Part shown: one piece after another, positions 17,137 through 64,000 of the stretch
How positions within the stretch are numbered: position 1 is the first letter of the stretch
Layout of the letters: each line of letters opens with the position of its first letter
Source: Dechloromonas agitata is5
Lineage (GTDB): Bacteria > Pseudomonadota > Gammaproteobacteria > Burkholderiales > Rhodocyclaceae
Length of the DNA: 64,000 nucleotides
Assembly (NCBI RefSeq): GCF_000519045.1
Contig: NZ_KI912532.1
Location: 1,550,001-1,614,000 of the forward strand
Direction of reading: 5' to 3'
Position numbers and translations under genes: made by a program
The notes under the pieces: model-generated
The model's input: the letters and a program-made list of their open reading frames with translations, nothing else
Told to the model about the DNA's origin: nothing
The model's database searches: none

Positions 17137-17204
17137 GGAACTCCTCCGGGAGGCGCTGACTGCCGCGTGGGAAACCGCCCGCAAGGGCTGCGGGCTCTCC
17201 CGAC

Positions 17205-17951
17205 TCATGACATGTGCTGGCCACCGTTCATCGCCACGTTGCTGCCCGTCATGAAAGCAGCAGCCTCACTGGCGATAAAGGCCACCAGCGCCGCGATCTC
17301 ATCCGGCTGGCCGAGGCGACCCACCGGAATCGCTTCGATGACCTTCTGGCGCACGTCCTCGCGCACCGCCATCACCATTTCGGTGGCCAGATAGCCCGGC
17401 GAGACGGTGTTGACCGTCACGCCCTTGCGTGCCACCTCCTGCGCCAGCGCCTTGGTGAAGCCATGCACGCCAGCCTTGGCCGCCGAGTAATTGGTCTGGC
17501 CGAACTGACCCTTGCTGCCGTTGATGGACGAGACGTTGACGATGCGCCCCCAGCCACGCTCCACCATCGGATCGATGAATGGCTTGGTGACATTGAACAT
17601 GGAGTCTAGGTTGGTGCGCAGCACGGCGTCCCAGCCGGATTTGTCCATCTTGCGCAAGGTCGCGTCGCGGGTGATGCCGGCGTTGTTCACCAAGATGTCA
17701 ACGTGGTGGCCGTCCGCCTGAATCTGACGCGCCAAAGCCTGGGTCGATTCCCAGTCGCCGACATCGACGCCGTAGGCCGTGAACCGGTAGCCTTTGGTGT
17801 CCTGCGCGTCGAGCCAGGCGGCAACCTTGTCGTTGCCGGGCGTGTGCGTGATGATGACGCGGTGGCCCGCGTCGTCCAGCGCGCGGGCAATGGCTGCGCC
17901 AAGACCGCGATTGCCGCCGGTGACCAGGGCGGTTCGTCCGGAACTGCTCAT
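17205..17951 (-). CDS. phaB: Acetoacetyl-CoA reductase PhaB
   Basis: This is a 248-residue short-chain dehydrogenase. The Rossmann motif is TGGNRGLGAAIA (about 10-21), the NNAG motif is VNNAGITRDATLRKMD, and the catalytic residues are a Ser in VSSINGSKGQFGQ and YSAAK. The phrase GQFGQTNYSAAKAG and the GG-rich C-terminus are typical of PhaB. PhaB reduces acetoacetyl-CoA to (R)-3-hydroxybutyryl-CoA with NADPH for PHB synthesis. It is preceded by GAGGAGG. A FabG-type ketoreductase is the alternative, but the phaC-phasin neighbourhood favours PhaB. Confidence 0.9.
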   Translation of the reverse strand: MSSSGRTALVTGGNRGLGAAIARALDDAGHRVIITHTPGNDKVAAWLDAQDTKGYRFTAYGVDVGDWESTQALARQIQADGHHVDILVNNAGITRDATLRKMDKSGWDAVLRTNLDSMFNVTKPFIDPMVERGWGRIVNVSSINGSKGQFGQTNYSAAKAGVHGFTKALAQEVARKGVTVNTVSPGYLATEMVMAVREDVRQKVIEAIPVGRLGQPDEIAALVAFIASEAAAFMTGSNVAMNGGQHMS

Positions 17952-17961
17952 ATGCGCCTCC

Positions 17962-18405
17962 TCATTTTTTGGTCTTGCCCTGAGGCGCGGCGTCTGGCGC
18001 ACTCCAGGGCTGCGTCCATTGCTGACAAAACTGCGCGAAAGAGGCTGTGCCACCGCTGGCGCCGAATACCTCGGAGACGGATGCCTTCCAGGTCGTCAGC
18101 GCTTCGCGCAGGCCATCGGCGAATGCCGCCTGGCTCTTGGCAGCAGCCTGGCCGACCGCCTGGGTATCGCCCATACGGCCCTGGCACAGGCGCCAGAACA
18201 CCTCGGATGGCAAGGTGGCAAGCGCCTGCCAGTCCGCCGCCTGTTGGAGGTTCTGGATGCGCGAGGTGGTCTCCAGCACGCCACCGGCACTGAGCTGTTG
18301 CATGGCTTCGAGCCAGTGGTGGCCGCTTTCTTGCAGCAAGCGGGTGATCTGAAGCTGCAACTCGGCATTGGCCTTGTAGAGTTGGATGGGCAGTTCGCTG
18401 TTCAT
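17962..18405 (-). CDS. Phasin (PHB granule surface protein)
   Basis: The 147-residue, largely helical protein has the phasin pattern: amphipathic segments with Gln/Ala/Leu (LYKANAELQLQITRLLQESG) and a C-terminal lysine cluster. Phasins coat polyhydroxyalkanoate granules and control their size. The gene is between phaC (108-base gap) and phaB (10 bases), with GGAGC six bases before the ATG. Exact phasin subfamily is not determined. Confidence 0.8.
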   Translation of the reverse strand: MNSELPIQLYKANAELQLQITRLLQESGHHWLEAMQQLSAGGVLETTSRIQNLQQAADWQALATLPSEVFWRLCQGRMGDTQAVGQAAAKSQAAFADGLREALTTWKASVSEVFGASGGTASFAQFCQQWTQPWSAPDAAPQGKTKK

Positions 18406-18513
18406 GTCAATGCTCCACGGTCATGATGTGCCCCTCCGGGGCGGGTGTAGGCCGTGCCTGCGCAACGGCCCGATGAAAGTTGAGTGGTGTATTCGTGGCG
18501 GCGTTTTGTCCTG

Positions 18514-20271
18514 TCATCGCATGGCCACGTAGGTTCCCGGCGCATCGCCAAGCGGTGCTTGCGTCCCGCCCATGGCAGGCGGCGCGACGCGCCCGGCCGA
18601 GCGCTGCGCCAGCCACTGCTGCCAGGCTGGCCACCAGGAGCCCTCCTTTAGCGGCGTCGTGGCGCGCCACTGCTGCGGATCGACATAGCGATCGCCAGGG
18701 GCGCGGGTGGCGATCTGGAAGCTGCGCCGGGGGTGTCCCGGCTCGCTGACGACACCGGCGTTGTGCCCGCCGCTGGTGAGCACGAAGGTCAGTTCCGCAT
18801 CGCTGAGCAGGTGCATCTTGTACACGGACGGCCAGGGGGCGACGTGATCGCGCACTGTGCCGACGATGAACATGGGCACCTCGATGTCGGCCAGCGCCAC
18901 GGGTCTCCCACCAACGCGGTAGCGCCCCTCGGCCAGGTCGTTGTCCAGATACAGGCGCCGCAGGTACTCGCTGTGCATGCGGTACGGCATGCGGGTCACG
19001 TCGGCATTCCAGGCCATCAGGTCATTGAAGGTCTGGCGCTCGCCCAACAGGTATTCGCGCACCCGTCGTGACCAGATCAGGTCGCGCGAGTTGAGCATCT
19101 GGAACGCGCCAGCCATCTGCTTGCCGTCGAGATAGCCCTTGTCCCACATGCCGGCTTCCAGCCATGCCAATTGACTGTCGTCGATGAAAAGCGCGATCTC
19201 GCCCGACTCGCGGAAGTCGGTCTCCGATGCCAGCAGCGTCAGGCTTTGCAGACGCTCGTCGCCATCGCGCGCCATCGCGGCGGCGGCGATCGCGAGCAAG
19301 GTGCCGCCCAGGCAATAGCCGACCGCCTGCACCTTGCGTTCGGGCACGATGGCCGTGACCGCATCCAATGCGTCCATGACCCCCAGCCAGCGGTAATCCT
19401 CCAGGCCGAGGTCACGATCGGCCGCCGTCGGGTTCTTCCATGAAAGGATGAACACCGTGTGCCCCTGATCGACCAGGTACTTCACCATCGAGTTGTGCGG
19501 CGACAGGTCGAGGATGTAGTACTTCATGATCCAGGACGGCACGATCAGTACCGGCTCCGCATGCACATCCGGCGTCGTGGGTGAGTACTGGATCAACTCG
19601 ATCAGGTGGTTTCGAAACACCACCTTGCCTGGGGTGACCGCCACGTCCTTGCCGACCTCGAACCCTTCGACCCCTGCGGGCGCATCGTCGAGCGCGAGGC
19701 GCCTTGCATCTTCCAGAAAGTTCATGGCGCCGCGCCACAGGTTGGCACCGCCGCTGGCCCGGATCGCATCCAGCACCTCGGGGTTGGTCCAGATGAAATT
19801 CGAAGGCGACCACATGTCCAGCCACTGCCGCCCGGCGAAAGTGACCATGTTCTCGTGATGGCGCGACACGCCACGCACGCCTGTGGTGGCGTTGTGCCAC
19901 CACTGCTGCTGCAGCAAAAAGCCCTGGTGAATCACGTTGAAGGGCCACTGCTGCCAAGCCGGGGCGGCAAAGCGCCGATCCTGCTCCAGCGGTTCGATGC
20001 AGGTCGGGCAGTCGTGCGCACTGGCAACGCGCAAGGCATAGCGTGCAAGGCGCTGCTGCTTGTGCAAACCCTTTTCGATCAAGCTGCGTTGCTTGCCTGG
20101 GGAAAGGCTCAGGTGCAGCGCCCAGTCGTACCAGGCCAGCAGGCCGGCCGCCGGTGACAGCCCACCCGTGCTGCGCGCCCGCCAGGCGTTCGCGAGCGTA
20201 TCCAGGGTGTCAGGGCGACAGGCTTCGGGCTGCGCCAGATCGGCCTTGCCGTGTGTTGCGACGTTGCTCAT
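18514..20271 (-). CDS. phaC: Class I poly(3-hydroxyalkanoate) synthase PhaC
   Basis: PhaC polymerises (R)-3-hydroxyacyl-CoA into PHB at the granule surface. The 585-residue protein has the N-terminal PhaC domain and the lipase-like box GYCLGG with the catalytic cysteine at about 317. The catalytic Asp is in VRDHVAPW (about 473) and the His in SGGHNAGVVSEPGHPRR (about 499). The ATG at 20271 has GAAGGG six bases upstream; an in-frame TTG six bases earlier is less likely. It is the first gene of the minus-strand cargo operon. No beta-ketothiolase (phaA) is encoded nearby, so acetoacetyl-CoA must come from the host. Confidence 0.95.
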   Translation of the reverse strand: MSNVATHGKADLAQPEACRPDTLDTLANAWRARSTGGLSPAAGLLAWYDWALHLSLSPGKQRSLIEKGLHKQQRLARYALRVASAHDCPTCIEPLEQDRRFAAPAWQQWPFNVIHQGFLLQQQWWHNATTGVRGVSRHHENMVTFAGRQWLDMWSPSNFIWTNPEVLDAIRASGGANLWRGAMNFLEDARRLALDDAPAGVEGFEVGKDVAVTPGKVVFRNHLIELIQYSPTTPDVHAEPVLIVPSWIMKYYILDLSPHNSMVKYLVDQGHTVFILSWKNPTAADRDLGLEDYRWLGVMDALDAVTAIVPERKVQAVGYCLGGTLLAIAAAAMARDGDERLQSLTLLASETDFRESGEIALFIDDSQLAWLEAGMWDKGYLDGKQMAGAFQMLNSRDLIWSRRVREYLLGERQTFNDLMAWNADVTRMPYRMHSEYLRRLYLDNDLAEGRYRVGGRPVALADIEVPMFIVGTVRDHVAPWPSVYKMHLLSDAELTFVLTSGGHNAGVVSEPGHPRRSFQIATRAPGDRYVDPQQWRATTPLKEGSWWPAWQQWLAQRSAGRVAPPAMGGTQAPLGDAPGTYVAMR

Positions 20272-20291
20272 CTCCAACCCTTCATTTAGCG

Positions 20292-37697: not shown

Positions 37698-39668
37698 TCA
37701 GCTGATCGACATCCCACGCCCCCGCCCCATATCCCACGACGCAACGCCGCCGCGCATAGTCGCCGCAATCTGCTGCCCCAGCCGCTGCTCGATCACCGGC
37801 TTCCACGGCACTAGGCTGAACCCCATGCCGTCATCGAGCATGGCGTAGCGCCCGCTGGCGAGCATGACACTGCGCCGGTAGATGCCAGCCACGCGCTGGC
37901 CGTCGGCAACCGGGCGATGCTCCAAGCCAGTTTCGGCGGCAATGTCCTTGGCGGCCTGTGCCAGTTCCCGGTTGCGCAGCGTGCCCAGCAGGTTGCGCGC
38001 CAGGATCACGCGCTGCCCACGCCGCTCGGCCAGTCCCTGTTCGGCTAGGAAGTCGGCGCGCTGCTGCATCGCCTGCTTGGCCTCGCCGCCAAAGCCCAGG
38101 TCGCCTAAGCCCGAGCCGCCGCCGATCAGTTGTTGGTCGAGCCAGGTAGCGCCGATGACTCGGGCCTGCCGCTCGATGGGCAGATGCGATTTCAGTTCCA
38201 CGGCCACGCCGCCCAGGCGCTGCGCGTCGTACTTACGGCCACGCTCGGGCAGATCGTCCGGCACCTTCCATAGACCTTCGGCCACGCGCTCCACGATGCC
38301 TGCCCGGCGCAAGGCTTCCAGCCGGCGGACGTGAGTTGCCACAACCTCTTGCGGATCGCGGCCGGGCACGGCCTGGCCCTGGGCGATGGCAAGGTGATGG
38401 TCAGTGCGGTACAAGCCACCGCTCGCCAGCGCGGCGATGTTCTTGTCGGCTGCGCGCACGTCGACCGATCCTTTCACCTCCACCACGGCGCCGCTCGGGT
38501 AGTTCGCCAGCTCGTCGCGAGCATTGAGCGCGACGTAGTGGGCTTTGCCGTCCACGCCGTCGATGACCAGATAGCCCCGGTCGTGCAGTTCGTCGGCCAG
38601 CCCCTTGGCGGCCACGCGGCCGAGGATGGTTCGGCCGTCGTCGCCTGGCTCGAACATCGCCAGTTCGCGCGGTTCGCCGCGCATGGCCCGCTGCATGGTG
38701 CGGATGATGTCGCCGCGTTCGCCCAGGGAACGCAGCGTCTTCTCGGCATCGGTATGGACGGCCCAGGTGCCGGACTGCACCTCGTCGGCCAGGCCCAGGC
38801 GCTGCAAGAGTTGCAGGCGGCCGATCAGCAGCAGGCGCTGGCGTTGCAGCCGCGGTTCGTTGAAGCGTTCGATCTGCACTCGGCCGTTGTCGCCAGCCTC
38901 ACGCTTCAAGGTGCGATCCAGGCTCGTCCACCGCTCCTGCCCCACCTCGCGCTGCAAGGTCTGCTGGATCTCCAGCTCAGTGCGCGGCCCCAGCCATTCG
39001 GTCGCCAGCTCGGACGCGCGATGCCGGAAGCCATTGGCGATGTAGTCGCCCGCGATGATGAGGTCTTTGCCCGTGTCGTCGCGCCCACGCACGATCAGGT
39101 GGGTATGCGGGTTGTCGGTGTTCCAGTGATCCACCGCCACCCATTCCAACCGCGTGCCCAGGTCGGCCTCCATGCGCCCCATCAAGTGCCGCGTGTAGGT
39201 GCGCAGGTCTTCCAGCTCCGCGCCATCCTCCGGCGAGAGGATGAAGCGGAAGTGATGCCGGTCATCGGCGCAGCATTCCTTGAAAGCGTCGAGGTCGGCG
39301 GCATCGGTCTGCGGCCCGTAGGCTTGGCCCGGCTCGCCATCGCGGCCCACGCCATCGCGCTCGATGTAGCGCAGGTGCTTGGCGAGCGATTGCGGGCTGG
39401 CCCGCTGCTGGTTGAGCAGCAGCGTCTTGATGGTCACGCGCCGCGACATGGGTGTCAGCTTCGCCCCGGCGAAGCGTGCCGCTGTGTGGCCGCGTCCCAG
39501 GCGCGAGCCGGGCCGCTGGCCTGTACCCCTCCCGCCAGGACGACGCACCGACGACTTGCCGCTGCTGGCCTTGCGTGCCTGCTTGAGCACCTTGGAGACG
39601 AAGCCCTGGTCGCGGTTCTTCGGAGCGCTGGGGCGGATGCGGAAATCATCGTCGCGGCGGTTGGTCAT
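37698..39668 (-). CDS. MOBP-type relaxase (DUF3363/VirD2-like)
   Basis: The relaxase nicks the transfer origin and leads DNA into the recipient. From the start MTNRRDDDFRIRPSAP the protein is 656 residues. A basic N-terminal arm is followed by the relaxase domain with the metal-binding histidines in WNTDNPHTHLIVRG (about 183-196). The large C-terminal DUF3363 region follows. A longer open frame reaches 40055 but has a low-complexity shadow composition. In Tn4371 elements this gene is usually annotated rlxS or traI. Confidence 0.9.
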   Translation of the reverse strand: MTNRRDDDFRIRPSAPKNRDQGFVSKVLKQARKASSGKSSVRRPGGRGTGQRPGSRLGRGHTAARFAGAKLTPMSRRVTIKTLLLNQQRASPQSLAKHLRYIERDGVGRDGEPGQAYGPQTDAADLDAFKECCADDRHHFRFILSPEDGAELEDLRTYTRHLMGRMEADLGTRLEWVAVDHWNTDNPHTHLIVRGRDDTGKDLIIAGDYIANGFRHRASELATEWLGPRTELEIQQTLQREVGQERWTSLDRTLKREAGDNGRVQIERFNEPRLQRQRLLLIGRLQLLQRLGLADEVQSGTWAVHTDAEKTLRSLGERGDIIRTMQRAMRGEPRELAMFEPGDDGRTILGRVAAKGLADELHDRGYLVIDGVDGKAHYVALNARDELANYPSGAVVEVKGSVDVRAADKNIAALASGGLYRTDHHLAIAQGQAVPGRDPQEVVATHVRRLEALRRAGIVERVAEGLWKVPDDLPERGRKYDAQRLGGVAVELKSHLPIERQARVIGATWLDQQLIGGGSGLGDLGFGGEAKQAMQQRADFLAEQGLAERRGQRVILARNLLGTLRNRELAQAAKDIAAETGLEHRPVADGQRVAGIYRRSVMLASGRYAMLDDGMGFSLVPWKPVIEQRLGQQIAATMRGGVASWDMGRGRGMSIS

Positions 39669-40116
39669 GGCTGCGCTCTCCGAAAGCTGCGGCGTGTCCG
39701 GTCGTGCGAAGCACGCGGACATGCCCGCATCGGCGCGGGCCACGCGCCACAAGCAGCACGGCGGCGAAGCCGCGTCGTGCCGCGCCACCCCCACGTGCAG
39801 ACTGGCTTTGCGGGCCGACAGGTGCCGCACCCTTTTGTCTTGCCTTCCGCCTTTGCCCCTCGCTGGCGCTCCGGGCAGCGGCGGCCCGGTGGCGCTGCTG
39901 CGCGAGCAGCCAGCGCGCCGGCGAACGCGGACACGGCCACAGGCCGGGCGCGTTCGAGGCAAGACGCCTGCACGTTGGACGGCTGCGCCGGAGGCAGCGC
40001 GAAGTGCGGTGCCCAATGCGAAGTATTGGCACCCGCACTGCACGCGCGACGACACGGCGACGGCCAGCAGAACGACACGCCCGATAGCACGATGATGCGC
40101 AGCGAATCAGCGGCGA
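39669..40116. other. Gene-free region upstream of relaxase; candidate oriT
   Basis: These 448 bases lie between traF and the relaxase gene and hold no convincing gene, although several frames stay open because of GC content. The position, directly upstream of the relaxase start, is a common place for a transfer origin. No nick-site consensus that I know (for example the IncP core) is visible. The one recognisable element is a stray 15-bp iteron-like copy at 40080-40094. Confidence 0.35.
40080..40094 (+). repeat. Isolated copy of the replication iteron core
   Basis: CCCGATAGCACGATG is identical over 15 bases to the middle iteron of the origin-like region (42319-42333). It lies about 2.2 kb away, just after the traF stop codon and upstream of the relaxase. 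Confidence 0.6.
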
Positions 40117-40680
40117 TCATGGGCGTGACTCCAGCCAGACCGGACGTGCAACGCCGATCACGGCGGCTGCGCTGACCGGCCCGAAATACCGGCTGTCGAA
40201 CGAAGCCGGATTGGTCACACTTAGCAGGAACAGTTCGTCGGGTTCGAGGCGCTGGCACTGCTGCCAGGACGGCAACGGTCGGCCCCAGCGGTCGGCGGGC
40301 AGCACGGTGGCCGAAAGCACGCCGTCGATGCGGACGACGCGACCAGCGATGCACACCTCCTGCGGTGCGACGGCACCCACGCGCTTGAGCAGCGGCACGC
40401 GCGCCGGCAGGTAGCCGCGCTGCGCAGCGAGCGCGGCAGCCTCTGCGGGCAGCGACACCAGCACGATGCTGTCCACGGACAATGGGCGTGGCGGCGAGCT
40501 GGTGCCGCGACCCAACGGATCGACGCGATACCAGCCCACGGGAACGCTGTCGGACGGGTTGTAGATCAGACGTGGCATTGGATGCACGAAGGACGCCCAG
40601 GCCAGCGCAGCGAGGCCGCAGGCGGACAGGCCCGCCAGTACGAGGCGAGCGCGCACGCGGGAGCGAGGATGGGCCGTCAT
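40117..40680 (-). CDS. traF: TraF, S26-family conjugative peptidase
   Basis: The 187-residue protein has a membrane anchor (about 12-32) and the S26 signal-peptidase-like sequence YNPSDSVPVGWYRVDP, whose Ser is the nucleophile. The Lys-containing segment LLKRVGAVAPQEVC and the C-terminal LFLLSVTNPASFDSRYFGPV complete the family pattern. In RP4, TraF matures and cyclises the TrbC pilin. It overlaps the DUF2840 gene by four bases at its start. Confidence 0.92.
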   Translation of the reverse strand: MTAHPRSRVRARLVLAGLSACGLAALAWASFVHPMPRLIYNPSDSVPVGWYRVDPLGRGTSSPPRPLSVDSIVLVSLPAEAAALAAQRGYLPARVPLLKRVGAVAPQEVCIAGRVVRIDGVLSATVLPADRWGRPLPSWQQCQRLEPDELFLLSVTNPASFDSRYFGPVSAAAVIGVARPVWLESRP

Positions 40681-41222
40681 GGCAGCGCCCTCCCAGCCAG
40701 CCAGGCGGCGTGCCGCTCGGCGCTGTATTCGGGCAACGCCAAGTGCGCCGCAAGCCGGTTGGCGAGCGTGCGCCAGTACGCAGGCGAAGCGGCGGACGGC
40801 GCGATACTCAGCGCCTCGATGGTGTCGATGCGCTCCAGCACGGCGCGCACCTGGTTCTCCCCTTCGGCGTGGAGTAGCAGGCGCGCGCCCGGCTGCACGC
40901 CGGGGATACGCTGCGCCGCATCGAGCGGCGTGCAAGCCTGCATCACCATGAGCTGCCAGCGCACGGTGCCGTAGTCGTTGGCCTGCCAGCGGATGCGGCA
41001 GAACACGGCGTTCGGCATGAACACGGCGAGACTGCGCCAGCGGTCAAGCCGCTGCGTGCGCGCCGGTTCGCCAAAGCGCAGATAGAGCTTGAAACGGTGC
41101 TCCAGGAAGGCCAGCGAAACGCGCGTCAGCGGCGTTGAGGTAGGCCGTGCCGCGTGTGCTGGGAATGGCGGCGACGGTGCAGCCGTGGCCGCGTCAGCGG
41201 CAGGCAAAGCGGATGCAGTCAT
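40677..41222 (-). CDS. DUF2840 domain protein
   Basis: The 181-residue protein opens with an Ala/Pro-rich segment. The DUF2840 core follows (LTRVSLAFLEHRFKLYLRFGEP ... FCRIRWQANDYGTVRWQLMVMQ). It is conserved between parA and traF in Tn4371-type elements, with four-base overlaps to both neighbours. Its function is unknown. An auxiliary role in transfer initiation is only an inference from position. Confidence 0.8.
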   Translation of the reverse strand: MTASALPAADAATAAPSPPFPAHAARPTSTPLTRVSLAFLEHRFKLYLRFGEPARTQRLDRWRSLAVFMPNAVFCRIRWQANDYGTVRWQLMVMQACTPLDAAQRIPGVQPGARLLLHAEGENQVRAVLERIDTIEALSIAPSAASPAYWRTLANRLAAHLALPEYSAERHAAWLAGRALP

Positions 41223-51312: not shown

Positions 51313-52447
<1,135 letters not shown>

Positions 52448-52598
52448 GCCGGACACGCACTTCAAAGATACAAGGGATTGAAGCCGAATGGCCGTGACAG
52501 CGAAGTCGGCACGGGGCGTAGCCCGAAAGCCCGGCGGAGCATCGCGCCGACACGCCCAGGCCGTTCTATATTTTCAGGAAGGAACCCAAGACAAGCCC

Positions 52599-53522: not shown

Positions 53523-55580
53523 TCAAGCGGCCAGCGCCTCGGCGGGTTCATCCGCCATTGCTTCGGCATCCTCCGGGGCGTCCTGCTCCGGGCTTTCCTC
53601 CTGCGCGGCATCCTGCGGGTCTGCGGCCTTGAAGATGGCGGGCATCCAGCCCGTGCCATCGGCCAGCCGCTCGGCTTCGCTGGCAATGTCGGCCTTCTTG
53701 AGCTTCGCCAGCCGGTTGATTTGCTCGGGCGCGTACTCGCCCACGGCATCCAGAATCACGGCCTTGGAAACGTGCTTGAAGTAGCCTTCTGCGGTCGGCT
53801 TCCACCATGCGGCCATGTCGAGGCCCACGGCCTGCGCCAGTTCTTCGCCGCGATGGTGCGTCGTGGCGCGGGGCGTCACCACGTCCACCGTGGAAGCCAC
53901 GCACACGGCCAGCAGTCGCACCAGTTCGTCTTGCGGCTTCGCCAGCAGCGCGGCGAACAGTTCGGCGCTGTCCTCTGGCAAGGCTACACCGGCCACCTGT
54001 TGCAGTTCGCGCAGCGCCACGGCGGCGGGCGATTCCGGCCAGTCCGGTGCCATGCCTTCCAGCCGGTCTTGCGCCGTGAGGCGCACGCCGAGCGGCAGGC
54101 CATCGCCGTAGGCGTCGGGCTGCAAGACGGTCTGCACCATGCCATGCACCAGTGCGGCCAGCGCGACATGCGGATGCCGGGCGACTTCGATTTGCAGCGC
54201 CGCCGTGCGGTGGGCGCTCAACCGCTGCGCCAGCCGGTCGGACAGGCTCGCGGCCTTGGGTGCGTCGTCGGCGTCCTCGTGCTCGTCGTTGGCGACTTCG
54301 CCTTCGGTGTTGCCGAAACCGCGCCGCAGCTTTTCCAGCGTGCGCAGCGCCTTGGCCTCGGCTTCGCGCAGCAGGCCGCGATGAATGGCGGCTTCGCCGT
54401 TGCGGTCGATGGTGACGATGACACCGGCCACCTCGCGCACTTCGGGGGCATAGCCCTGTAAGGCGTCCTCCGCGTCTTGCAGTTCGCCGATCACCTGATC
54501 GCGCCGCCGTTCCAGCTTCTCGGCCTTGGCCTCGTCCTCGTCCTCGGCGTCGCAGGCTTCTTCCAGTTCGGCGTCGATCTTTTCGAGGCGGGTTTCCAGC
54601 GAGGCGATGCGGCGGGCCTCGCGGGTGGTCGGCTCGCGGCGATGGCGCGGGGCGTTCTGGAACGCCTGCCGTTCCTCGTAGGCCAGATGCGGCACGGCCT
54701 CCACCCACGCCCAGCCCTCGGCGCGCACGTCCTCGGCCAGCGTTGCCAGCTTGTCGCGCACCAGCGTTTCCAGCACTGCGGTATCGGTGAGGTAGGTTCC
54801 GGCATCGCCTTCTGCGAACAGGTCGCGGCGGATGCCGCCGCCTGCCTGCCGGTAGGTGTCCAGCCCGACGAAGCGCACCAGCGCGTGCGCGGCGTCGATT
54901 TCGCGCTCGGTCAGGCGCTCGCGCAGCTTGGACGGGCTGCGCTGCCATTCCGGCGCACCATAGAACGCGGCTTCCTGCGCGGCGTGGTCGTCGGTGATGG
55001 TCAAGGCCATCAACTGTTCCAGCGTGACGGTTCCAGCGCGGTAGTCGGTCATCAGGCGCGGCGAGACGTTCGCCAGCTTCAAGCGGCGCTGCACCACCAG
55101 CGGGGACACGCCGAAGTCGGCGGCAATGTCTTCGACGGGCCGGCCTTCCTTGACCAGCGCGGCGAAGGCCGCGAACTGGTCGGCGGGGTGCATGTTCTCG
55201 CGCTGCACGTTCTCCGCGAGGCTGACGGTACGGGCGGACGCATCGGCCACCAGCAGGCACGGCACTTCATAGTCGGCGGGGATGCGCTTCTTCTTCGCCA
55301 GCAGCTTCAAGGCGGTCAGGCGGCGATCACCGGCCACCACCTCGTAAGCCTCGCCGTCTGCGGAAAGGATGACGATCAGGTTTTGCAGCAGGCCGATGCG
55401 GGCAATGCTCGCGGCCAGTTCGGGGATGGACTGGCGCGGGGTCGTGCGGACGTTGCGCTTGGAGCGGCGCGGCAACAGTTGCGACAGCGGAACCAAGATC
55501 AGGTTCTTGGTCGGGTCTGCCGCTTCCAGCGGCGCGGCGGCTTCGATGGCGACGGTTTCGGTTTTGAGTACGGCGTTCAT
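53523..55580 (-). CDS. parB: ParB/RepB/Spo0J-family protein
   Basis: The 685-residue protein has the ParB N-terminal nuclease-like domain (IPELAASIARIGLLQNLIVI; GDRRLTALKLLAK; SLAENVQRENMHPADQFAAF) and a KorB-type helix-turn-helix (VEDIAADFGVSPLVVQRRLKLA). A long C-terminal region follows with a coiled coil (about 325-385) and acidic tails. It is much larger than chromosomal ParB, as is usual for Tn4371 elements. It is not paired with parA by position, so its role may be protective or regulatory in the leading region. Confidence 0.92.
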   Translation of the reverse strand: MNAVLKTETVAIEAAAPLEAADPTKNLILVPLSQLLPRRSKRNVRTTPRQSIPELAASIARIGLLQNLIVILSADGEAYEVVAGDRRLTALKLLAKKKRIPADYEVPCLLVADASARTVSLAENVQRENMHPADQFAAFAALVKEGRPVEDIAADFGVSPLVVQRRLKLANVSPRLMTDYRAGTVTLEQLMALTITDDHAAQEAAFYGAPEWQRSPSKLRERLTEREIDAAHALVRFVGLDTYRQAGGGIRRDLFAEGDAGTYLTDTAVLETLVRDKLATLAEDVRAEGWAWVEAVPHLAYEERQAFQNAPRHRREPTTREARRIASLETRLEKIDAELEEACDAEDEDEAKAEKLERRRDQVIGELQDAEDALQGYAPEVREVAGVIVTIDRNGEAAIHRGLLREAEAKALRTLEKLRRGFGNTEGEVANDEHEDADDAPKAASLSDRLAQRLSAHRTAALQIEVARHPHVALAALVHGMVQTVLQPDAYGDGLPLGVRLTAQDRLEGMAPDWPESPAAVALRELQQVAGVALPEDSAELFAALLAKPQDELVRLLAVCVASTVDVVTPRATTHHRGEELAQAVGLDMAAWWKPTAEGYFKHVSKAVILDAVGEYAPEQINRLAKLKKADIASEAERLADGTGWMPAIFKAADPQDAAQEESPEQDAPEDAEAMADEPAEALAA

Positions 55581-55659: not shown

Positions 55660-56484
55660 TCAGGCTTTCAACTGGCGCAAGCCATCGGCCAGCAGCCACA
55701 GGGAGCGGTTCAGGCGCACGTTTTGGTCAATGCCTTGAACGGGGCGGGTTTGCTGGCGGCGTCCGTTGGCGCTTCGCCCGGACAGTCCGCCCTTGGTCAA
55801 GTTCTCCTGCGTGCGGTTGAACACACTCCACAGGTCGCGGCGGTCGTCGTCATGGCGGCGCGGCATCAGGATTTGCGATTCCGTGATGGGCGCGGGCTTG
55901 TCCTCGTCGTACTTCAACGCCAGCGCAGCGCGGGCGAACACTTCCGATTCCCCTGCGTCCAGCGTGATAGCGCGCATGGCATCGCGGGATTCCTGCGCCC
56001 GGTCGAAGCCGTGCAGGACTTCGTATGCGCCTTCGATCACCTGTCCGGCCACGTCGCCCTTGTGAGGCACGCGCACGTCGGCCACGGTATCGCCGCAGAC
56101 AAGGCCATTGCTGCAAACGAAACGAAACATCCCGGCCAGCATCTGATAGCTGCTGGTGCCGTCATGGGAGTTCAGCAGGATGATTTCGTTGGCCTCGCGG
56201 CCGTTGATCTGGCTGGCGTGGCGCAGCCGGATCATGTGCTTGGTGTAGTCGCGGCGGTCGTCGTGGCGCACGCGGGTTTGCGTCACCATGAAAGGCTCGA
56301 AACCTTCCCCGCGCAGTTCTTGCAGCACGGTCGCGGTGGGGATGTAGCTGTACCGCTCGGAGCGGCTTTCGTGCGGGGCGTCCGCGAAGATGGACGGGGC
56401 CACGGCCCGGATTTGGTCGTCGGACAAGGGACGTTCCGAACGCAGCACCGGGGAACGGGAAGCGAAGCGGGATGCGAGTTGCAT
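55660..56484 (-). CDS. DUF932 (phage/plasmid-like) protein
   Basis: The 274-residue protein is a complete DUF932 member (SERYSYIPTATVLQELRGEGFEPFMVTQTRVR; MIRLRHASQI; MFRFVCSNGLVCGD; VIEGAYEVL). The family is widespread in conjugative elements and phages and is often encoded in the leading region. Its activity is unsettled. It lies 79 bases before parB, with which it probably shares a transcript. Confidence 0.9.
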   Translation of the reverse strand: MQLASRFASRSPVLRSERPLSDDQIRAVAPSIFADAPHESRSERYSYIPTATVLQELRGEGFEPFMVTQTRVRHDDRRDYTKHMIRLRHASQINGREANEIILLNSHDGTSSYQMLAGMFRFVCSNGLVCGDTVADVRVPHKGDVAGQVIEGAYEVLHGFDRAQESRDAMRAITLDAGESEVFARAALALKYDEDKPAPITESQILMPRRHDDDRRDLWSVFNRTQENLTKGGLSGRSANGRRQQTRPVQGIDQNVRLNRSLWLLADGLRQLKA

Positions 56485-57012
56485 GGCATTTCTCCTGACA
56501 AAGAAAAAAGGGTTTGCTGTTCACACCGCACACCGGATTCCTAGATTCGGAAGCCCAGCCTTTCGGCTGTTCGGTGCGGTCGGCACGAGGAACCCGGTTG
56601 GCCCTGTTGCCACCGTCTTTCCTGAGTTCATCGCCCGCGACGGTCAGGAGCGCGCGAACGGGTGCCGTCAAGGAGGCAAGCGCAGGGTTGGTGCGGCCCG
56701 CAGGCGCAGCCGAGGACACGGCCCTGCGCGCCTTGACGGCACACGGGCGCGGGCTACAGTCGCGGTGAAGGTGATGAAGTCAGGGGAGACGGCTGGACAT
56801 GGCAACGGCCCCTCAACACGCCGACCGCACGGCAAGCGAAGCGCGCAGGCCCGGATCTAGGAATCCGGGCCGGAGGCGTCAGCCGAGCGGAGCGAGGGAA
56901 CGATGGAAGCCCATCAGGGGCGAGACGCCGCAGGCGGCTCGATGCGAAGCACGACAGCGCGACCGGCCATGTCTGCTTGGCCGGGGACGCACGACCGTCC
57001 TACCATCCCTCT
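56485..57012. other. Structured leading-region intergenic module C
   Basis: These 528 gene-free bases separate the divergent DUF932 and DUF6988-like genes. A very large dyad (GTGCCGTCAAGG at 56662-56673 with its complement at 56731-56742, and inner arms GCGCAGGG / CCCTGCGC) surrounds TTGACG (56733-56738). TACAGT follows 16 bases later (56755-56760), a promoter-like pair on the plus strand. The right part (56832-56990) is a copy of the repeat described at 59048-59190. Confidence 0.55.
56832..56990 (+). repeat. Conserved two-hairpin element, copy 1
   Basis: This element is alignable over most of its length to 59048-59190. Stem I is GGCCCGGAT / ATCCGGGCC (56848-56856 with 56863-56871). Stem II is CCGGCCA / TGGCCGG (56963-56969 with 56978-56984). 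Long identical blocks such as GCGCGCAGGCCCGGATC and GATGGAAGCCC lie between and around the stems. It ends 23 bases before the start of the plus-strand gene at 57013. Confidence 0.65.
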
Positions 57013-57678
57013 ATGGAAGAAACCATCATCAACAACGACCCGTTGGAGCACATGCTTCACCGCTCCAATGCCTTGCACGAACGGCTGGATGAATTGCTGG
57101 GCAATGCCGAGTTCGATGGATCGCCCCGTGGCGAATCAGCCCTCGGCATGTGCTTGGTGGCTATGGAACATGCGGCGGCAATGCGAGCGTTGATGTCGCT
57201 GCGACTGCCCACGTCTGCCGTCGGCCTCATGCGCCTGCAGTTCGAGGCCCTGACACGGGCAATGTGGCTGCTCTACGCAGCTAGCGACGCAGCGATCGAC
57301 AAGTTGCTGGCGCCACTGACGCAGCAGAGCGAACAGGCAGCCAAGAACTTGCCTGGCGCCAGCGAAATGATTGAGCAGATCGGCAAGCGAGTCGGACAAG
57401 GCGCGCCGGCAGCCGCGCACCAGATGCTGTTGCACTTCAAGGATGTGACCTGGCACGGCATGAACTCATTCGTGCATGGCGGCATTCATCCGCTGCGGCG
57501 TAGTGCCGACGGCTTCCCGGTCGATCTTGCGCTGCAAGTGCTGCGCAGCTCGAACGGTCTGATGACCATGACCGGCATGACGATGGCAGTTCTCACCGGC
57601 GATGAAGCCGTGGCCAAGCCCGTGAGCAAGATCCAGCCGGCATTCGCCGACTGCCTGCCGGATCTGCTGAGACCTTGA
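57013..57678 (+). CDS. DUF6988-like hypothetical protein
   Basis: The 221-residue soluble helical protein (start MEETIINNDPLEHMLHRSNAL) has conserved-looking stretches SAVGLMRLQFEALTRAMWLLY and VTWHGMNSFVHGGIHPL. These resemble the DUF6988/DUF5677 group of plasmid-borne proteins of unknown activity. It is the only plus-strand gene of this block and converges on DUF2958 copy 2. The repeat element with two hairpins directly precedes it. Confidence 0.65.
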   Translation: MEETIINNDPLEHMLHRSNALHERLDELLGNAEFDGSPRGESALGMCLVAMEHAAAMRALMSLRLPTSAVGLMRLQFEALTRAMWLLYAASDAAIDKLLAPLTQQSEQAAKNLPGASEMIEQIGKRVGQGAPAAAHQMLLHFKDVTWHGMNSFVHGGIHPLRRSADGFPVDLALQVLRSSNGLMTMTGMTMAVLTGDEAVAKPVSKIQPAFADCLPDLLRP

Positions 57679-57707: not shown

Positions 57708-58058
57708 TCATTGGACGATTCGCCCGGCCAGCCGCGCATCGCGCGCATAGGCGCTCAACCGCTTTTCGGCCCGGAAAGACAGGTCTCGTTCGATTGGCAG
57801 GCCCAGCGCGCCGCTCACGGTTGCCAGTTCGCCCAGGCTGACCCAGCCGATTTCCGGCATCCCCAGGCCCAGGTCACAAAGACCAAAGGCGTGGTCGTGG
57901 TCATCGGGATCAATCTCGGTCAACAGCCAGGTCGCGCCGGCATCCGGCGTGAACAGCTTGACCACGGGTGCCGGATCGAAGTCCGGGTTCTGCAAGGATT
58001 CGCGGCCATTGGCCAGCAGCACGACGCGCTGCTCGTCGGTGATGAATGCGCAGTTCAT
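57708..58058 (-). CDS. DUF2958 protein, copy 2
   Basis: The 116-residue protein (MNCAFITDEQRVVLLANGRE ... VVKLFTPDAGATWLLTEIDP) is a paralogue of the product of 44728-45078, of equal length and clearly alignable along its whole length, with many substitutions. It has its own upstream repeat module (58074-58300), so it is probably transcribed alone. Its activity is unknown. Confidence 0.88.
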   Translation of the reverse strand: MNCAFITDEQRVVLLANGRESLQNPDFDPAPVVKLFTPDAGATWLLTEIDPDDHDHAFGLCDLGLGMPEIGWVSLGELATVSGALGLPIERDLSFRAEKRLSAYARDARLAGRIVQ

Positions 58059-58073
58059 GGTGAACTCCTGAAA

Positions 58074-58300
58074 GGTTGCCGGGCGGAATTGCCCGACCCT
58101 TCCGGGGCACGGCGCAGCGCAAGCAGTCAGGGGGCAACGACGGCCGCCAGGACGCCAGCGCCAGCGGCGCGCAGCCCTTGACGGCGAGAACGCCGTGGCA
58201 CGATGAAGGGAACAGCAAGACCGCCTCCCTCGTACGTCCACGCAACTCGGTTTTCGGCAAGTGCGCAGCACGCGCAGGCCCGCGAGGGCCGGAGTTGCGC
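58074..58300. repeat. Leading-region repeat module A (upstream of DUF2958 copy 2)
   Basis: The module shares long identical blocks with module B (58860-59190): a hairpin CGGGC-GGAATT-GCCCG, the block GGCGCAGCGCAAGCAGTCAG, and CCTTGACGGCG-AGAA-CGCCGT with a 6-bp stem and 4-base loop (58181-58196). A TGAAGGGAACAGCAAGACCG block follows. Its right end has a short version of the two-hairpin element. It fills the entire gap between the radC terminator and the DUF2958 start. Confidence 0.7.
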
Positions 58301-58313
58301 CGCCGGGCGCAGC

Positions 58314-58336
58314 AAAAAGGGGGCCGAAGCCCCCTT
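58314..58336 (-). terminator. Intrinsic terminator of radC
   Basis: Read on the minus strand, AAGGGGGC-TTCG-GCCCCCTT is an 8-bp stem with a stable TTCG loop. It is followed by a T run of five including the stem end, and starts two bases after the radC stop. This is the clearest intrinsic terminator in the window. It separates radC from the downstream DUF2958 gene. Confidence 0.85.
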
Positions 58337-58338
58337 GG

Positions 58339-58848
58339 TTAGATCAGGCCGCGCTCGGCGAAGGATGTGGTGCTGCTGCCCGCCACGATGATGTGATCCA
58401 GCGTGCGAACATCCACTAGTGCGAGTGCCTCCCTGAGCCGCTGCGTCAGCGCCCGATCAGCGGCGCTCGGCTCGGGATTGCCGCTCGGATGGTTGTGCGA
58501 AACGATGACCGCCGCCGCATTGAGCCGCAGCGCCTCCTTGACCAGCTCGCGCGGATACACCGATGCGCTGTCGATGGTGCCGCGGAACATCTCGGCATAC
58601 TCGATCAAACGATGCTGCGAATCGAGGAACAGCACCGAGAACACTTCGTGCTCGAAGCCAGCCAGCTTGGCGCGCAGGTACTCCTTGACCGCCGCCGGCG
58701 AACTGAACGATGCACCGCGCTGCATTTTGTGCTCGATGGCTTGGCGCGCGGCCTCCAGAATCTGGTCTGCCGTCGCCAGCAGGTAGCGGCCTTGTGCATC
58801 GCGCACCATCAGCGAGGCATCGAACGAGGAGAAGGACAGTTGCGACAT
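58339..58848 (-). CDS. radC: RadC-family (JAB/MPN) protein
   Basis: The 169-residue protein has the RadC JAB metalloprotease-like domain: FEHEVFSVLFLDSQHRLIEYA and the metal site SHNHPSGNPEPSAAD at about 115-129. It lacks the N-terminal helix-hairpin-helix of chromosomal RadC, as is common for mobile-element copies. The biological activity is uncertain despite the name. Its own module (B) lies upstream and a terminator follows. Confidence 0.92.
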   Translation of the reverse strand: MSQLSFSSFDASLMVRDAQGRYLLATADQILEAARQAIEHKMQRGASFSSPAAVKEYLRAKLAGFEHEVFSVLFLDSQHRLIEYAEMFRGTIDSASVYPRELVKEALRLNAAAVIVSHNHPSGNPEPSAADRALTQRLREALALVDVRTLDHIIVAGSSTTSFAERGLI

Positions 58849-59428
58849 GATCGTGCTCCGGTTGCTCGGGCGGAATTGCCCGGAACCGTGGCCAGCACGG
58901 CGCAGCGCAAGCAGTCAGGGGTCGCAGACGGCCGCCAGGACGCCAGCGCGCAAAAGCGCGCCGCCCTTGACGGCGAGAACGCCGTGATACGGTGAAGGGA
59001 ACAGCAAGACCGCCACACCCGCCCACTGCACACACTCGGATTTTTTGGCAAGCGGAGCGCGCAGGCCCGGATCAGTGAGCCGGGCAGGAGGCGTCAGTGA
59101 TGGAAGCCCGCATGGGACGAGACTCGCGCAGCGAGGCTCGATGCGCAGCACGAGAGCGCGGCCGACCGATTCATCGGTCGGAGACGTACCAACTCGCTCA
59201 CCGACTAAACCGCGGCCAAGAGAGGGGCGTCAGCATGTGAAGCCTTCACCAGCGAAGCCAGACGCTTCAGCTTGGTATCGCGTACTCAAGACTGGATATT
59301 TCGAGCGCAAGAAACAGAGAGCGCGAACGGAGGCGAATCACTACGCTTGATTCCAAGCGAGACATGGAACGTCTCACTGCCATGAGCCCGGCACGTCGCC
59401 GGCTTTGGCTTCACGCAAGGAGTCCGCC
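58849..59428. other. Gene-free region holding leading-region module B and two-hairpin element copy 2
   Basis: These 580 bases between divergent radC and the gene at 59429 contain no convincing gene. 58860-59013 is module B, the close copy of module A, with the stem ACGGCG-AGAA-CGCCGT at 58970-58985. A GCGCGC-TTTT-GCGCGC hairpin lies near 58946. 59048-59190 is the second copy of the two-hairpin element. From 59190 to 59428 I see only an AAGGAG ribosome binding site for the next gene. Confidence 0.6.
59048..59190 (+). repeat. Conserved two-hairpin element, copy 2
   Basis: This aligns to 56832-56990. Stem I is GCCCGG / CCGGGC (59065-59070 with 59080-59085). Stem II is CCGACCGA-TTCA-TCGGTCGG (59162-59181). 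Stem II differs in sequence from copy 1 but keeps perfect pairing in both copies, so the changes are compensatory. Confidence 0.65.
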
Positions 59429-60888: not shown

Positions 60889-62766
60889 TCATCCTCCTGA
60901 ATCAGCCACAAAAGGGAACAAGCCGTATCTGCCGTGATGTGGATTCTTACCAAACATCAGTGACTGCTCGCGCTTCATGATTGCATCAGGCGGATCAGTG
61001 TTTTCGACCACGATTACCTGTGTGTCGATGGGCAATGCTTCAAGGTAGGCATAGAACTGCTCCTGAAGATCAGTGCCGGTCAAATCATCTTCCGTCCCAT
61101 CAGGCTCCCGATACGCGAGCAAGGGAGAGTCAAGAACAACGAACCCAGTGTGCGGCGTTTGGCGCGCTCGACAGAACGCTAGCAGCCCGAGCGTGAAGGC
61201 CGCGTGCGTGATTGCGCGAAGGCCCTTACCAAAAGCACTGCGCGACTTGCCGGCGATGACAAGATCGCGAGTCTTGGAGTCGAAATACACATCCCCGGCT
61301 TCTGGAAAGTGCCAGCCCGTCAGAATGTTCTCAACAGTCTTGGCAAAGCTGTGAGTCACAGTGGTTGGGAGGTCTGTGTTAGCAAGCGCCCCAGCCTTCT
61401 CGCCCTCGGCGCCCTTCTCAAGATCGGCACGGCGGCGCTCCATGTCTTGTACGGTGGCGTAGAGTGCCAATGCCTCACGCACCTCGGCGCGTTTGTCGGC
61501 GAAATCAGAATAGGACTTGCGAAGGGTCGAAAGCCTAGGTGCGATCAGTTCTTCCACAGCGTCGGAAATTGATCCCAATTCCTGAACGACTGAAGGTAGC
61601 CTACGATCGAAGCTGACACTCTCACGCTCAAGATTGCGGACAGTGGCTGCAAGCTCTGCTCGCAGTACTTCGATCTTAGCGATCTCCATCCGGGCAGCCT
61701 GAACGACAGCATCGGTATCCCCGTTGCATTCGGCATCGGCGCGATGATGAGCGGGCGCTGCACCACAAAGGGGGCAGTGCCCACCACCTAGCACGTTAAA
61801 CAGTGTCCCTCCTTCTTCAATAGCACGCAGCCGTTCGATGTCGGATACGTAGTGCTTGTCTAGCAGGCTGAACCGCTCAAGCATCGCCCCGACCTCTGCT
61901 CGTCGCTCGCGGCTTTCCTCCAGTTTTTTTCGCAGTTCACGTCGCTTCCCCGCAGCTTCCTGGAATTCTGCTTCAGTGGTGTTCACTTGGCCCGCCTGCT
62001 GACGCAGCGAGGTGTCGATCTTCTCTAACTGCTCCTCTAACTCCTTCGGGCTTTTGGTCAGCTCCCTGAGCCGCTCGCGGTAGTCGTCAAGAAGCTGATC
62101 AAGAAGTTGTAGCTGTGCCTCACGCGACAGTTCTTCCGGTTCGCTCTTGTTGTTCGCGACCAGCGCCGAGTCGTCCGTGCCCGTCAGAAGTAGCTTGAAC
62201 GTTGCGAGGTTGGGCGTATTGGCGGTGGGATTGCCATCAAACAGAGGGGAGCTTTGTTGCGTGATCTCCGTCTCGTCGACGATCATCAGGCGCGCAATGT
62301 TGCGAAAGCTCAGGCTGTTGGTTTCGTTCCTGGAATTCTTGCGGACGCGCTTGCCGCGAAGACCGCACAGCTCCAGTAAGAAGGAGGAAAGGTTTGCGTC
62401 ATTCCTCTCACTATGTTTATCGTCAAGCTGCTTGTATGAAATGTCGGTCGCAGGTGGCGTCTGATGCAAACCGTCATAGAGCCGAAAACCGCCGCCGTCC
62501 ATACTGCGCCAGAGCGTGAAGGGCTTACCGTCAAGTGTCTCAAGTCCGAGAAGAATGAGGTCGTATCCGACACGCTCCGGAATGTCACGCAGGGGCGGCT
62601 TGCCACCGAGCATGAAATCGATAGCCTCAACGATAAAAGATTTCCCGGTGTTCGACGCGCCATAGATGACATTCAGGCCGGGACCGAAGGTGACACTTGA
62701 TGGCTGCTTCTGCGGCCCGTAGAAGCCGAGAAAACGCAGGCGGAAACCGGGAGTTGCTGCTGTCAT
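60889..62766 (-). CDS. ABC-three-component system ATPase (Rad50/SMC-like)
   Basis: The 625-residue protein has an N-terminal P-loop GASNTGKSF (36-44), a long coiled coil (about 205-305 and 360-455) and a zinc-hook-like centre HCPLCGAAPAHHRADAEC at about 331. The C-terminal Walker B region is FVVLDSPLLAYREPDG. This is the ATPase of ABC-3C systems, thought to act as the sensor or DNA-bound motor in anti-phage or anti-plasmid conflict. It overlaps the middle-component gene as ATGA. Base composition is lower in GC than the backbone. Confidence 0.85.
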   Translation of the reverse strand: MTAATPGFRLRFLGFYGPQKQPSSVTFGPGLNVIYGASNTGKSFIVEAIDFMLGGKPPLRDIPERVGYDLILLGLETLDGKPFTLWRSMDGGGFRLYDGLHQTPPATDISYKQLDDKHSERNDANLSSFLLELCGLRGKRVRKNSRNETNSLSFRNIARLMIVDETEITQQSSPLFDGNPTANTPNLATFKLLLTGTDDSALVANNKSEPEELSREAQLQLLDQLLDDYRERLRELTKSPKELEEQLEKIDTSLRQQAGQVNTTEAEFQEAAGKRRELRKKLEESRERRAEVGAMLERFSLLDKHYVSDIERLRAIEEGGTLFNVLGGGHCPLCGAAPAHHRADAECNGDTDAVVQAARMEIAKIEVLRAELAATVRNLERESVSFDRRLPSVVQELGSISDAVEELIAPRLSTLRKSYSDFADKRAEVREALALYATVQDMERRRADLEKGAEGEKAGALANTDLPTTVTHSFAKTVENILTGWHFPEAGDVYFDSKTRDLVIAGKSRSAFGKGLRAITHAAFTLGLLAFCRARQTPHTGFVVLDSPLLAYREPDGTEDDLTGTDLQEQFYAYLEALPIDTQVIVVENTDPPDAIMKREQSLMFGKNPHHGRYGLFPFVADSGG

Positions 62767-63257
62767 GCTTCTCCCCCCAGACTTTGCTCAACGTGGTGAA
62801 ATTCCTCGACCCATTTATCGAAAAATCGGCGCATCATGCTCTTAAATTGTTCGTCCGTGAGACCACCGATGGCTTCGACAAGCCAAGTGGCACGCTCCTT
62901 GAGGGCTACCAGGTAGTTGGAAGACACCGACGACAGAAACGTGGTGGCGTTCTCGCCCGCACCGTACTTGATGCCGTCGGCTGTAACCTCACGCGCCACC
63001 AGGTCACGGGTCATCATCAGAAGCAGCGACTGCTCGACCAGTTTGCGGCGCACGAGCATTTCAGCAGAGGGCGTCGGCGTCGGAGGATGCAAATTTTCCG
63101 GACCGTCGAGATCGCCTGTATGGACAAGTAGGTAGTCAAGCGCGACGAGCCGCTGGAGGTCATAGGTTTGCGGGTAGGCAGCGCCCAGAATCGAGACCGC
63201 GCGGATACCGGCCTCAAGCGGACCATTGAAGGTGATCGGCTTACGCTCCTGGTTCAT
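62763..63257 (-). CDS. ABC-3C middle component (MC2-like)
   Basis: The 164-residue protein (MNQERKPITFNGPLEAGIRA...) has the middle-component pattern: AYPQTYDLQRLVALDYLLVH, then HPPTPTPSAEMLVRRKLVEQ and a helical tail. This family connects the ATPase to the effector subunit. The ATG at 63257 overlaps the upstream stop codon as ATGA; an in-frame GTG at 63269 is the alternative. The subtype MC2 is my recognition of the sequence pattern, not a search result. Confidence 0.78.
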   Translation of the reverse strand: MNQERKPITFNGPLEAGIRAVSILGAAYPQTYDLQRLVALDYLLVHTGDLDGPENLHPPTPTPSAEMLVRRKLVEQSLLLMMTRDLVAREVTADGIKYGAGENATTFLSSVSSNYLVALKERATWLVEAIGGLTDEQFKSMMRRFFDKWVEEFHHVEQSLGGEA

Positions 63258-64000
63258 GATCGTGTCCACCGTAGGCGATCTTCATTCACGAGCTGATGGC
63301 AGATTCCATCCCGGTCTTTGGGGTTCGTGCAGGTGATGAGGGCATTCGCCGTGATTTGCATGTCGCGGGCCGCCTTGGTTACGGCGCAGACCTTTACGTA
63401 GCCATCGGCATGACTCGCGTCGTGTGTGTCGATAACGCCGTCGTGAATGTCGTCGAGCAAGGACTCAAAGGTGCCAGGCGGGACACCATCGCGGGCGAAG
63501 ACGCGCAGTGACTCTGCTTCGTAGAACGCTTCGCGCTGACGACGGAAGTGATCTTTGAGCTTCTGCACAGACAGCCCAGAGGGGTCGGTCACGACCGCCC
63601 CCGTGTGCTCACCGTATGCGCCGAGCAACTGCGTCACATAGCGACTTTCGGCGGAAGCGACCTCTTGAGGAGGCTTTTCCGAAGCAGGTCGCGGTCGCAG
63701 TCCGCCACCGAAGCGCGCGGCGTGAGCCGGCGTAGTGCGATGATCGTCAACGAGCTGCAGTGCGGTCTTGGCGTCGAAGATGGAGAGGTCGAAGGCGTCT
63801 ACGTAGGCGCGGAGCTTTGCGTCGAGTGGCACCGTTTGTGTGCTAGTGATCGCATCTTTTACGTTCTTATCCCAGTTTGCAATCAACTCCTCGCGCAGCT
63901 TCGTAGCATTCGAAAACAGACGGCTGAGTGATGTGCCGGCACCGTGCGGCGAAACAAAGAAGTAGCAGCGGGGAGCTGTGTATTCACCGGTGTATGAATA
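63254..64000 (-). CDS. ABC-3C effector/C-terminal-component protein (5' part outside window)
   Basis: The frame is open from base 64000 to the stop at 63254, 248 codons, so the N-terminus is missing. Internal sequence includes CYFFVSPHGAGTSLSRLF near the cut edge and a C-terminal module (FYEAESLRVFARDGVPPGTFE ... HQLVNEDRLRW) that looks like the ABC-3C C-terminal domain. In these systems the part upstream of this domain is usually the effector (for example a nuclease or protease), and that part lies beyond the window. It is the first gene of the operon. Confidence 0.72.
   Translation of the reverse strand, partial: YSYTGEYTAPRCYFFVSPHGAGTSLSRLFSNATKLREELIANWDKNVKDAITSTQTVPLDAKLRAYVDAFDLSIFDAKTALQLVDDHRTTPAHAARFGGGLRPRPASEKPPQEVASAESRYVTQLLGAYGEHTGAVVTDPSGLSVQKLKDHFRRQREAFYEAESLRVFARDGVPPGTFESLLDDIHDGVIDTHDASHADGYVKVCAVTKAARDMQITANALITCTNPKDRDGICHQLVNEDRLRWTRS

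Follow-up and report, generated by a model that had tools for sequence, protein, structure and literature searches.

Structured modules upstream of radC and DUF2958 genes as candidate single-strand promoters in the leading region of a Tn4371-family integrative and conjugative element

From the Dechloromonas agitata is5 DNA analysed here (a stretch of 64,000 nt, referred to as the window), a GC-rich module (GC content about 0.7) can be deduced upstream of both a radC and a DUF2958 gene, which probably represents a pair of single-strand promoters working like the Frpo/ssi elements of conjugative plasmids, albeit unrelated to these in sequence and built differently. A preliminary description of the same DNA had proposed near-identical structured modules at these two places, sharing blocks of up to about 20 identical bases. 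The duplication is real and longer than claimed: over 155 bp, the two copies of the module, termed M, share 86% identity, and their longest stretch without any difference measures 27 nt. Also as described, M precedes each of the two genes separately, lying directly 5' of radC and of DUF2958, each a minus-strand gene of its own (Table 1). Homology extends beyond the covariance-model matches, up to position 58225 in the DUF2958 copy and 59022 in the radC copy. When the window was searched with the covariance model, the third-best place scored 12.7 bits versus 168 and 130 bits for the pair, and among the 18 matches to M listed from the own genome at E ≤ 1 the best one after the pair has an E value of 0.043, all others being weak. 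For the terminator that radC was said to possess, a terminator-like hairpin is readable at about 58312–58338, but the pattern scan does not report it.

Table 1. Features of the window relevant to module M, the DUF932 leader and repeat U. Positions refer to the window.
Feature	Position	Strand	Evidence and remarks
Relaxase gene (RlxS/TraI type)	37698–40055	minus	NF041267 650 bits, under cut-off 850; PF11843 492 bits
traF	40117–40935		family oriT placed between traF and relaxase gene
ParB-like gene	53523–55580	minus	PF02195; 31% identical to F leading-region ParB-like protein
DUF932 gene	55660–56484	minus	PF06067, E 3.9e-56; 54% identical to F plasmid protein
Large dyad, DUF932 leader	56649–56755	plus	arms 56649–56688 and 56716–56755, 40 nt, 73% complementary
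Candidate -35 TTGACG, DUF932 leader	56733–56738	plus	pattern and anatomy scans
Candidate -10 TACAGT, DUF932 leader	56755–56760	plus	16-nt spacer; pattern and anatomy scans
Repeat U upstream of DUF932 leader	56814–57001	minus	116 bits, model of own alignment
DUF2958 gene	57708–58058	minus	PF11171, E 3.6e-42
Module M, DUF2958 copy	58056–58209	minus	covariance-model match, 130 bits, ends at start codon
Candidate -35 TTGACG, DUF2958 copy	58178–58183	plus	scan match
Candidate -10 CACGAT, DUF2958 copy	58199–58204	plus	15-nt spacer; scan match
radC gene	58339–58848	minus	PF04002, E 2.7e-46
Module M, radC copy	58846–58998	minus	covariance-model match, 153 nt, 168 bits, ends at start codon
Hairpin P4a, radC copy	58868–58881	minus	GGGCAATTCCGCCC; directly 5' of ribosome-binding site; predicted mRNA 5' end
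P1 3' arm (gene sense), radC copy	58896–58902	minus	CGCCGTG
P2 5' arm (gene sense), radC copy	58964–58971	minus	GTCAAGGG; pairs with 58914–58921
Candidate -35 TTGACG, radC copy	58967–58972	plus	near-invariant columns; scan match
P1 5' arm (gene sense), radC copy	58980–58986	minus	CACGGCG; pairs with 58896–58902; compensatory changes
Candidate -10 TACGGT, radC copy	58988–58993	plus	15-nt spacer; at P1 base
Repeat U upstream of radC module	59031–59196	minus	112 bits, model of own alignment

The fold of M was read from alignment A1 (MAFFT), for which 70 of 136 distinct copies were kept after leaving out six truncated or odd copies as well as near-duplicates (≥94% identity). It comprises a long stem of helices P1 (7 pairs, with arms about 80 nt apart) and P2, which encloses two hairpins, P3 and P3b, and is followed by hairpin P4 before the ribosome-binding site. 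Within A1, 62 two-sided cells are found versus 17.2 in shuffles (0/500), a count not independent of the structure, since the latter was drawn by hand from this alignment. For nine copies held out from A1, which were aligned to the model itself, 19 pairs show two-sided change versus 6.5 in shuffles (0/500); the arm variants include GCACGCGG/CCGCGTGC and, in one copy, a P1 of CCCCTCG/CGAGGGG. As the P1 5' arm CACGGCG is kept in 100 of 123 copies, the sequence freedom of P1 rests on 23 copies.

In contrast, the short hairpin CGGCG-AGAA-CGCCGT, previously put forward as the structure carrying the -35 box, is not the selected fold, showing no two-sided change and 23 of 420 broken cells in the 70 copies. 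At its variable position, 16 of the 70 copies do not have G, and of these the long stem pairs in nine and the short hairpin in none. Of the 6 pairs of the short hairpin, 3 to 6 are present in each of the nine held-out copies, L246 retaining both folds. Hence, stem conservation in homologous elements holds for the long stem and the inner helices, which covary, and not for the 22-nt hairpin, which lacks compensatory change. Folding of the plus strands alone with DNA parameters gives the reverse picture, as the short local hairpin forms, with the -10 outside it, but the long stem does not. When sense RNA is folded alone, the radC copy goes to P1 and the DUF2958 copy to the local hairpin; RNAalifold on the first 136-sequence alignment reached only -4.8. 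No known RNA was matched by an Rfam search of the window.

The reading as promoter builds on two sets of near-invariant columns, counted in 127 copies after leaving out four partial copies and gapped rows. Sense columns 27 to 32, corresponding to TTGACG on the plus strand, are identical in 122 to 127 of these, in line with the consensus -35 noticed before. Furthermore, sense columns 6 (A) and 10 (T), each conserved in 126 of 127 copies, are the most conserved among columns 1–12, with only 0.45 bit in column 7 and 1.0–1.4 bits in columns 8, 9, and 11. Read on the plus strand, both columns give [T/C]AnnnT with A(-11) and T(-7) at 15 nt from the -35, and just these two are the key bases of a -10 box. 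By a hand count made post hoc, 5 of 132 placements of two invariant columns among 12 would fall in -10 register with a spacer of 14–18 nt. In the fold of the plus strand, TTGACG is placed in P2 on the 3' arm of the stem, the spacer is partly paired and the -10 is unpaired at the stem base. The short hairpin had been described before as carrying the -35; the -10 lies outside it, at the base of the long stem. The spacer is short and an A+T-rich UP element was not seen.

A hairpin with TTGACG is present on the plus strand, but in duplex DNA this -35 is directed away from the genes. An intermediate reading, according to which TTGACG is merely on the wrong strand and M is a 5'-leader RNA, was given up, as the folded plus strand aims the promoter into the gene: the 3' arm being non-template and the 5' flank giving the gene in sense, the promoter would therefore serve radC and DUF2958. 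Overall, single-strand promoters of the Frpo/ssi type, as initially suggested, are the best explanation found for M with its near-invariant TTGACG, although hairpin, place of the -10 and isolated fold differ.

Criteria for a strict anatomy scan were drawn from the M copies, requiring a -35/-10 box pair, a spacer paired to the 5' arm and a paired -35. When applied to both strands of the window plus 60 kb of flanks (124 kb in total), 35 box pairs were obtained, three of them with arms, and no further site. All three are on the plus strand, at 56733 (DUF932), 58178 (DUF2958), and 58967 (radC). The DUF932 leader is an independent case for this anatomy, not being a copy of M; the sequence CCTTGACGGC at 56731, correctly noted before as related to the hairpin of M, sits in its large dyad. 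This leader is conserved in about 60 loci. It spans about 300 nt (56485–56800), is often 93–99% identical and contains a nearly unchanged block, GATGAACTCAGGAAAGACGGTGGCAAC. A plus-strand DUF6988 gene (56977–57678) is located as if inserted between the DUF932 leader with its upstream repeat U and DUF2958. In a one-by-one test of 22 gene starts, the anatomy was found at five, namely the DUF932, DUF2958, and radC leaders and radC of two MOBF plasmids, and was absent at the ParB start and at 16 other plasmid leading-region starts; likewise, none of 440 shuffled segments had it. Among distinct M copies, 93 of 131 pass the strict scan, 92 of them with a 15-nt spacer, and 38 fail. With F as positive control, the strict scan misses both Frpo copies and gives one other match, while a looser scan yields two matches in F and three in ColIb-P9 on the T-strand, and two in each on the coding strand, none of those in F within the two Frpo blocks.

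By BLAST, M was found in 257 of 72,556 plasmid records (E ≤ 1e-5) and in 2 of 5,426 E. coli genomes, and was absent from 50,697 phage records. At E ≤ 0.01, the covariance model R1 matched 11 of 398 Pseudomonadota genomes, in two cases weakly and partially, and at E ≤ 0.001 it matched 6 of 369 genomes of the same class. A 19-mer of M is present in at least 115 stretches of the species-genome collection, several of these being chance matches within genes. The weak R1 matches G284 and G217 look unrelated to M by eye, and in one distant genome a repeat with a GTCAAGG/CCTTGAC dyad occurs three times, at 25.5 bits (L237, L244, and L247). The 172 aligned copies with complete flanks, a set including the pair of the window three times, are found before RadC (91), a 130-aa protein without Pfam match named MNDKS here (37), and DUF2958 (33), with 11 unassigned. 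Without such repetition, the corresponding values for the 132 distinct copies are 73, 27, 21, and 11. Diverged copies precede a DUF932 gene (protein 40% identical) and a RadC-like gene on an IMG/VR contig. On a Variovorax plasmid, M is located before RadC (53% identity, 139 aa), MNDKS and DUF2958 (63%, 67 aa); in addition, an M remnant (L257:9736–9884), lacking P4 and an intact gene behind it, lies between two working-looking copies.

The host element is a Tn4371-family integrative and conjugative element (ICE), encoding TrbE, TraG, TraF, ParA, relaxase, integrase, and the DUF932/ParB block, according to the block list in PMC11448139. In the same paper, oriT of a relative is assigned to the traF-traI intergenic region, and oriT is accordingly expected near 39.6–40.1 kb here. 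The hairpin-bearing genes lie 16–19 kb to the right of this place and face it, in a minus-strand block at 53–59 kb, so that with entry of the right side ahead of the left the plus strand would serve as template for them. Because the tra genes are on the other side and because of the likeness to F, the plus strand is probably the transferred one, with the right side entering first. In the MOBF plasmids CP000540 and NZ_LR778302, radC with M is located a few kb past the relaxase and TraD genes, and DUF932, SSB, and methylase genes have the same orientation as radC. Other parts of the ICE are cargo genes for phosphate acetyltransferase, acetoacetyl-CoA reductase and polyhydroxyalkanoate synthase (15606–20277) and ABC-three-component (ABC-3C) defence-like genes (60889–63886) adjoining the leading block.

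From these findings, the following sequence of events may be proposed. The plus strand of the ICE would be transferred after a nick at oriT, around 40 kb, bringing the block at 53–59 kb into the recipient early. The strand may then fold, as the comparative data suggest, with P1 and P2 pairing and the 3' arm holding TTGACG in P2; the P1 duplex would provide much of the spacer, and [T/C]AnnnT would remain single-stranded at the base of the stem, resembling a -10 that is already melted. With the 5' arm followed by the 5' flank as template, RNA polymerase would leave the stem at its base into the gene, with a predicted start about 14 nt beyond the stem base, in case of radC near 58882 at P4a, so that the mRNA would begin near P4a at about 35 nt before the start codon. 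Conversion to duplex DNA would finally unfold the hairpin; the promoter that is left would have poor spacing and be directed away from the genes, which would be switched off.

Which strand carries the structure is left undecided by covariation, wobble pairs and fold energy. In 125 distinct copies, G-U versus A-C cells amount to 16:21 in P1 to P3b (one P2 column left out) and to 74:28 in P4, the latter largely from one clade, and fold z-scores are alike for both strands (35 of the 70 sequences). In the left-out P2 column 32, an invariant A is opposite C in 96 of 123 copies, a mismatch in sense and a G-T pair on the plus strand. M might alternatively be a structured 5'-leader RNA, comparable to the radC RNA of Rfam, whose P4 lets a ligand, protein or small RNA regulate translation. 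Conservation of all 153 nt as far as the start codon, at near-constant distance, would fit, as would the position of P4 beside the ribosome-binding site together with its G-U excess, and RF01754 is a precedent for a leader repeated before several genes in other elements. Nevertheless, we regard an RNA leader as rather unlikely, as P1 to P3b show no G-U preference, the invariant A of column 32 is mispaired in sense but forms G-T on the other strand, and neither the invariance of A6, T10, and TTGACG nor the link to Frpo of F would be explained; moreover, a pattern scan found no conserved sense-strand promoter upstream of M.

Quite improbable are duplex functions of M, either as operators for a repressor such as a ParB/KorB-like protein or as an outward antisense promoter. 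For the latter, the plus-strand site TTGACG-16-TACAGT at 56733 could be adduced, being one of two promoter-like sites in the region versus 0.4 expected, but the 15-nt spacer of M is poor for duplex DNA. Against operators, the arms 80 nt apart change together and the adjacent CGCCGTCAAGG is unchanged, as strand pairing would predict and two protein sites would not. Hardly tenable, finally, are single-strand initiation sites solely for second-strand priming (ssi without gene expression), since priming would not require a copy in front of each of several genes that reaches up to the start codon, even though Frpo transcripts also prime DNA synthesis according to PMC7736820.

Besides M, the window contains a second repeat. 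Repeat U, present upstream of both the radC module and the DUF932 leader, is located upstream of M or the DUF932 leader in 136 of the 150 places found in the examined loci. A truncated copy (52473–52564) is directly beside an IS110-family transposase gene (51313–52314). When searching a 20-kb stretch of F with an HMM of 118 U sequences, only 10088–10173 (E 2.8e-5) and 15477–15561 (E 4.6e-4) were matched, at low scores of 18.9 and 14.9 bits with a composition bias of 11–12 bits, while ColIb-P9 and two flanking stretches gave nothing at E ≤ 10. In a larger set, one ICE stretch (L249) scores between the two F matches. This weak match (L249:1871–1981, minus strand, E 5e-4) belongs to an ICE integrase block, where it precedes a gene whose product has an Mrr-like nuclease domain. 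In F, each match sits at the outer, gene-distal edge of a 548-nt block. The two blocks are 90.1% alike, one preceding ssb and the other a gene pair whose last member is DUF932. PMC9849209 places Frpo2 in front of ssbF and Frpo1 in front of ygeA-ygeB, describes them as 92% alike and reports that early expression in recipients requires them; the two blocks are taken to be Frpo2 and Frpo1.

Going further, and more tentatively, M and the DUF932 leader may belong to a family of fork-junction-like single-strand promoters, in which a covarying hairpin keeps the -35 duplex next to a pre-melted -10 and which are silent in duplex DNA, with a regulon of radC, DUF2958, DUF932, and the 130-aa protein in ICEs and plasmids. 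Together with U, this could constitute a composite establishment element shared with F, the hairpin having been swapped for an unrelated one. If true, gene expression from single strands would reach Tn4371 ICEs and several plasmid backbones, beyond F- and I-type plasmids, the fold of such a promoter would have covariation support, and model and signature would be at hand for finding others. In addition, RadC-like, DUF2958, and DUF932 proteins would act in the first minutes after entry, and the question why conjugative elements carry their own RadC would become testable.

Compared with known systems, M resembles the RF01754 radC RNA in being a leader repeated before several genes of conjugative elements. 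However, the downstream genes are others, the score of R1 does not exceed 12.5 bits on any of five RF01754 loci, these loci have neither a strict-scan match nor U, and the RF01754 covariance model has no match in the window at ≥40 bits. RF01754 itself exceeded the cut-off at 24 places, distributed over 5 of 200 genomes, with ten places in a single genome; in L258 and L259, which represent other elements, it is repeated in front of different genes. M is not described in the open-licence literature searched, which misses most subscription journals. In PMC11541004, Frpo-like sequences were sought by similarity and by consensus boxes, and M may overlap the candidates of that study.

Stem-loops with -35 and -10 on the single strand are described for Frpo/ssi in PMC9849209 and PMC11541004. 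Unlike these, M is a smaller and GC-rich hairpin with a 15-nt spacer, the -10 unpaired at its base and no UP element seen. In the F stretch, R1 matches nothing at E ≤ 1. In ColIb-P9, it scores 16.2 bits (E 0.013) and 9.4 bits, the first of these weak matches (L261:37980–38144) preceding a DUF4942 gene near relaxase genes. Of the features marking Frpo/ssi members, M has the position in the leading region and the shared outer-edge element, but not the similarity in hairpin sequence; with a hairpin unrelated to known Frpo, M is therefore filed as working alike and not as a member. F and the window are also alike in having the DUF932 (54%) and ParB-like (31%) genes nearby, and in F the copies are bordered by U on their outer side. 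Frpo1 and Frpo2 of F, ssi2 and ssi3 of ColIb-P9, and M have in common the location in a leading region, genes facing oriT and near-identical copies before separate genes.
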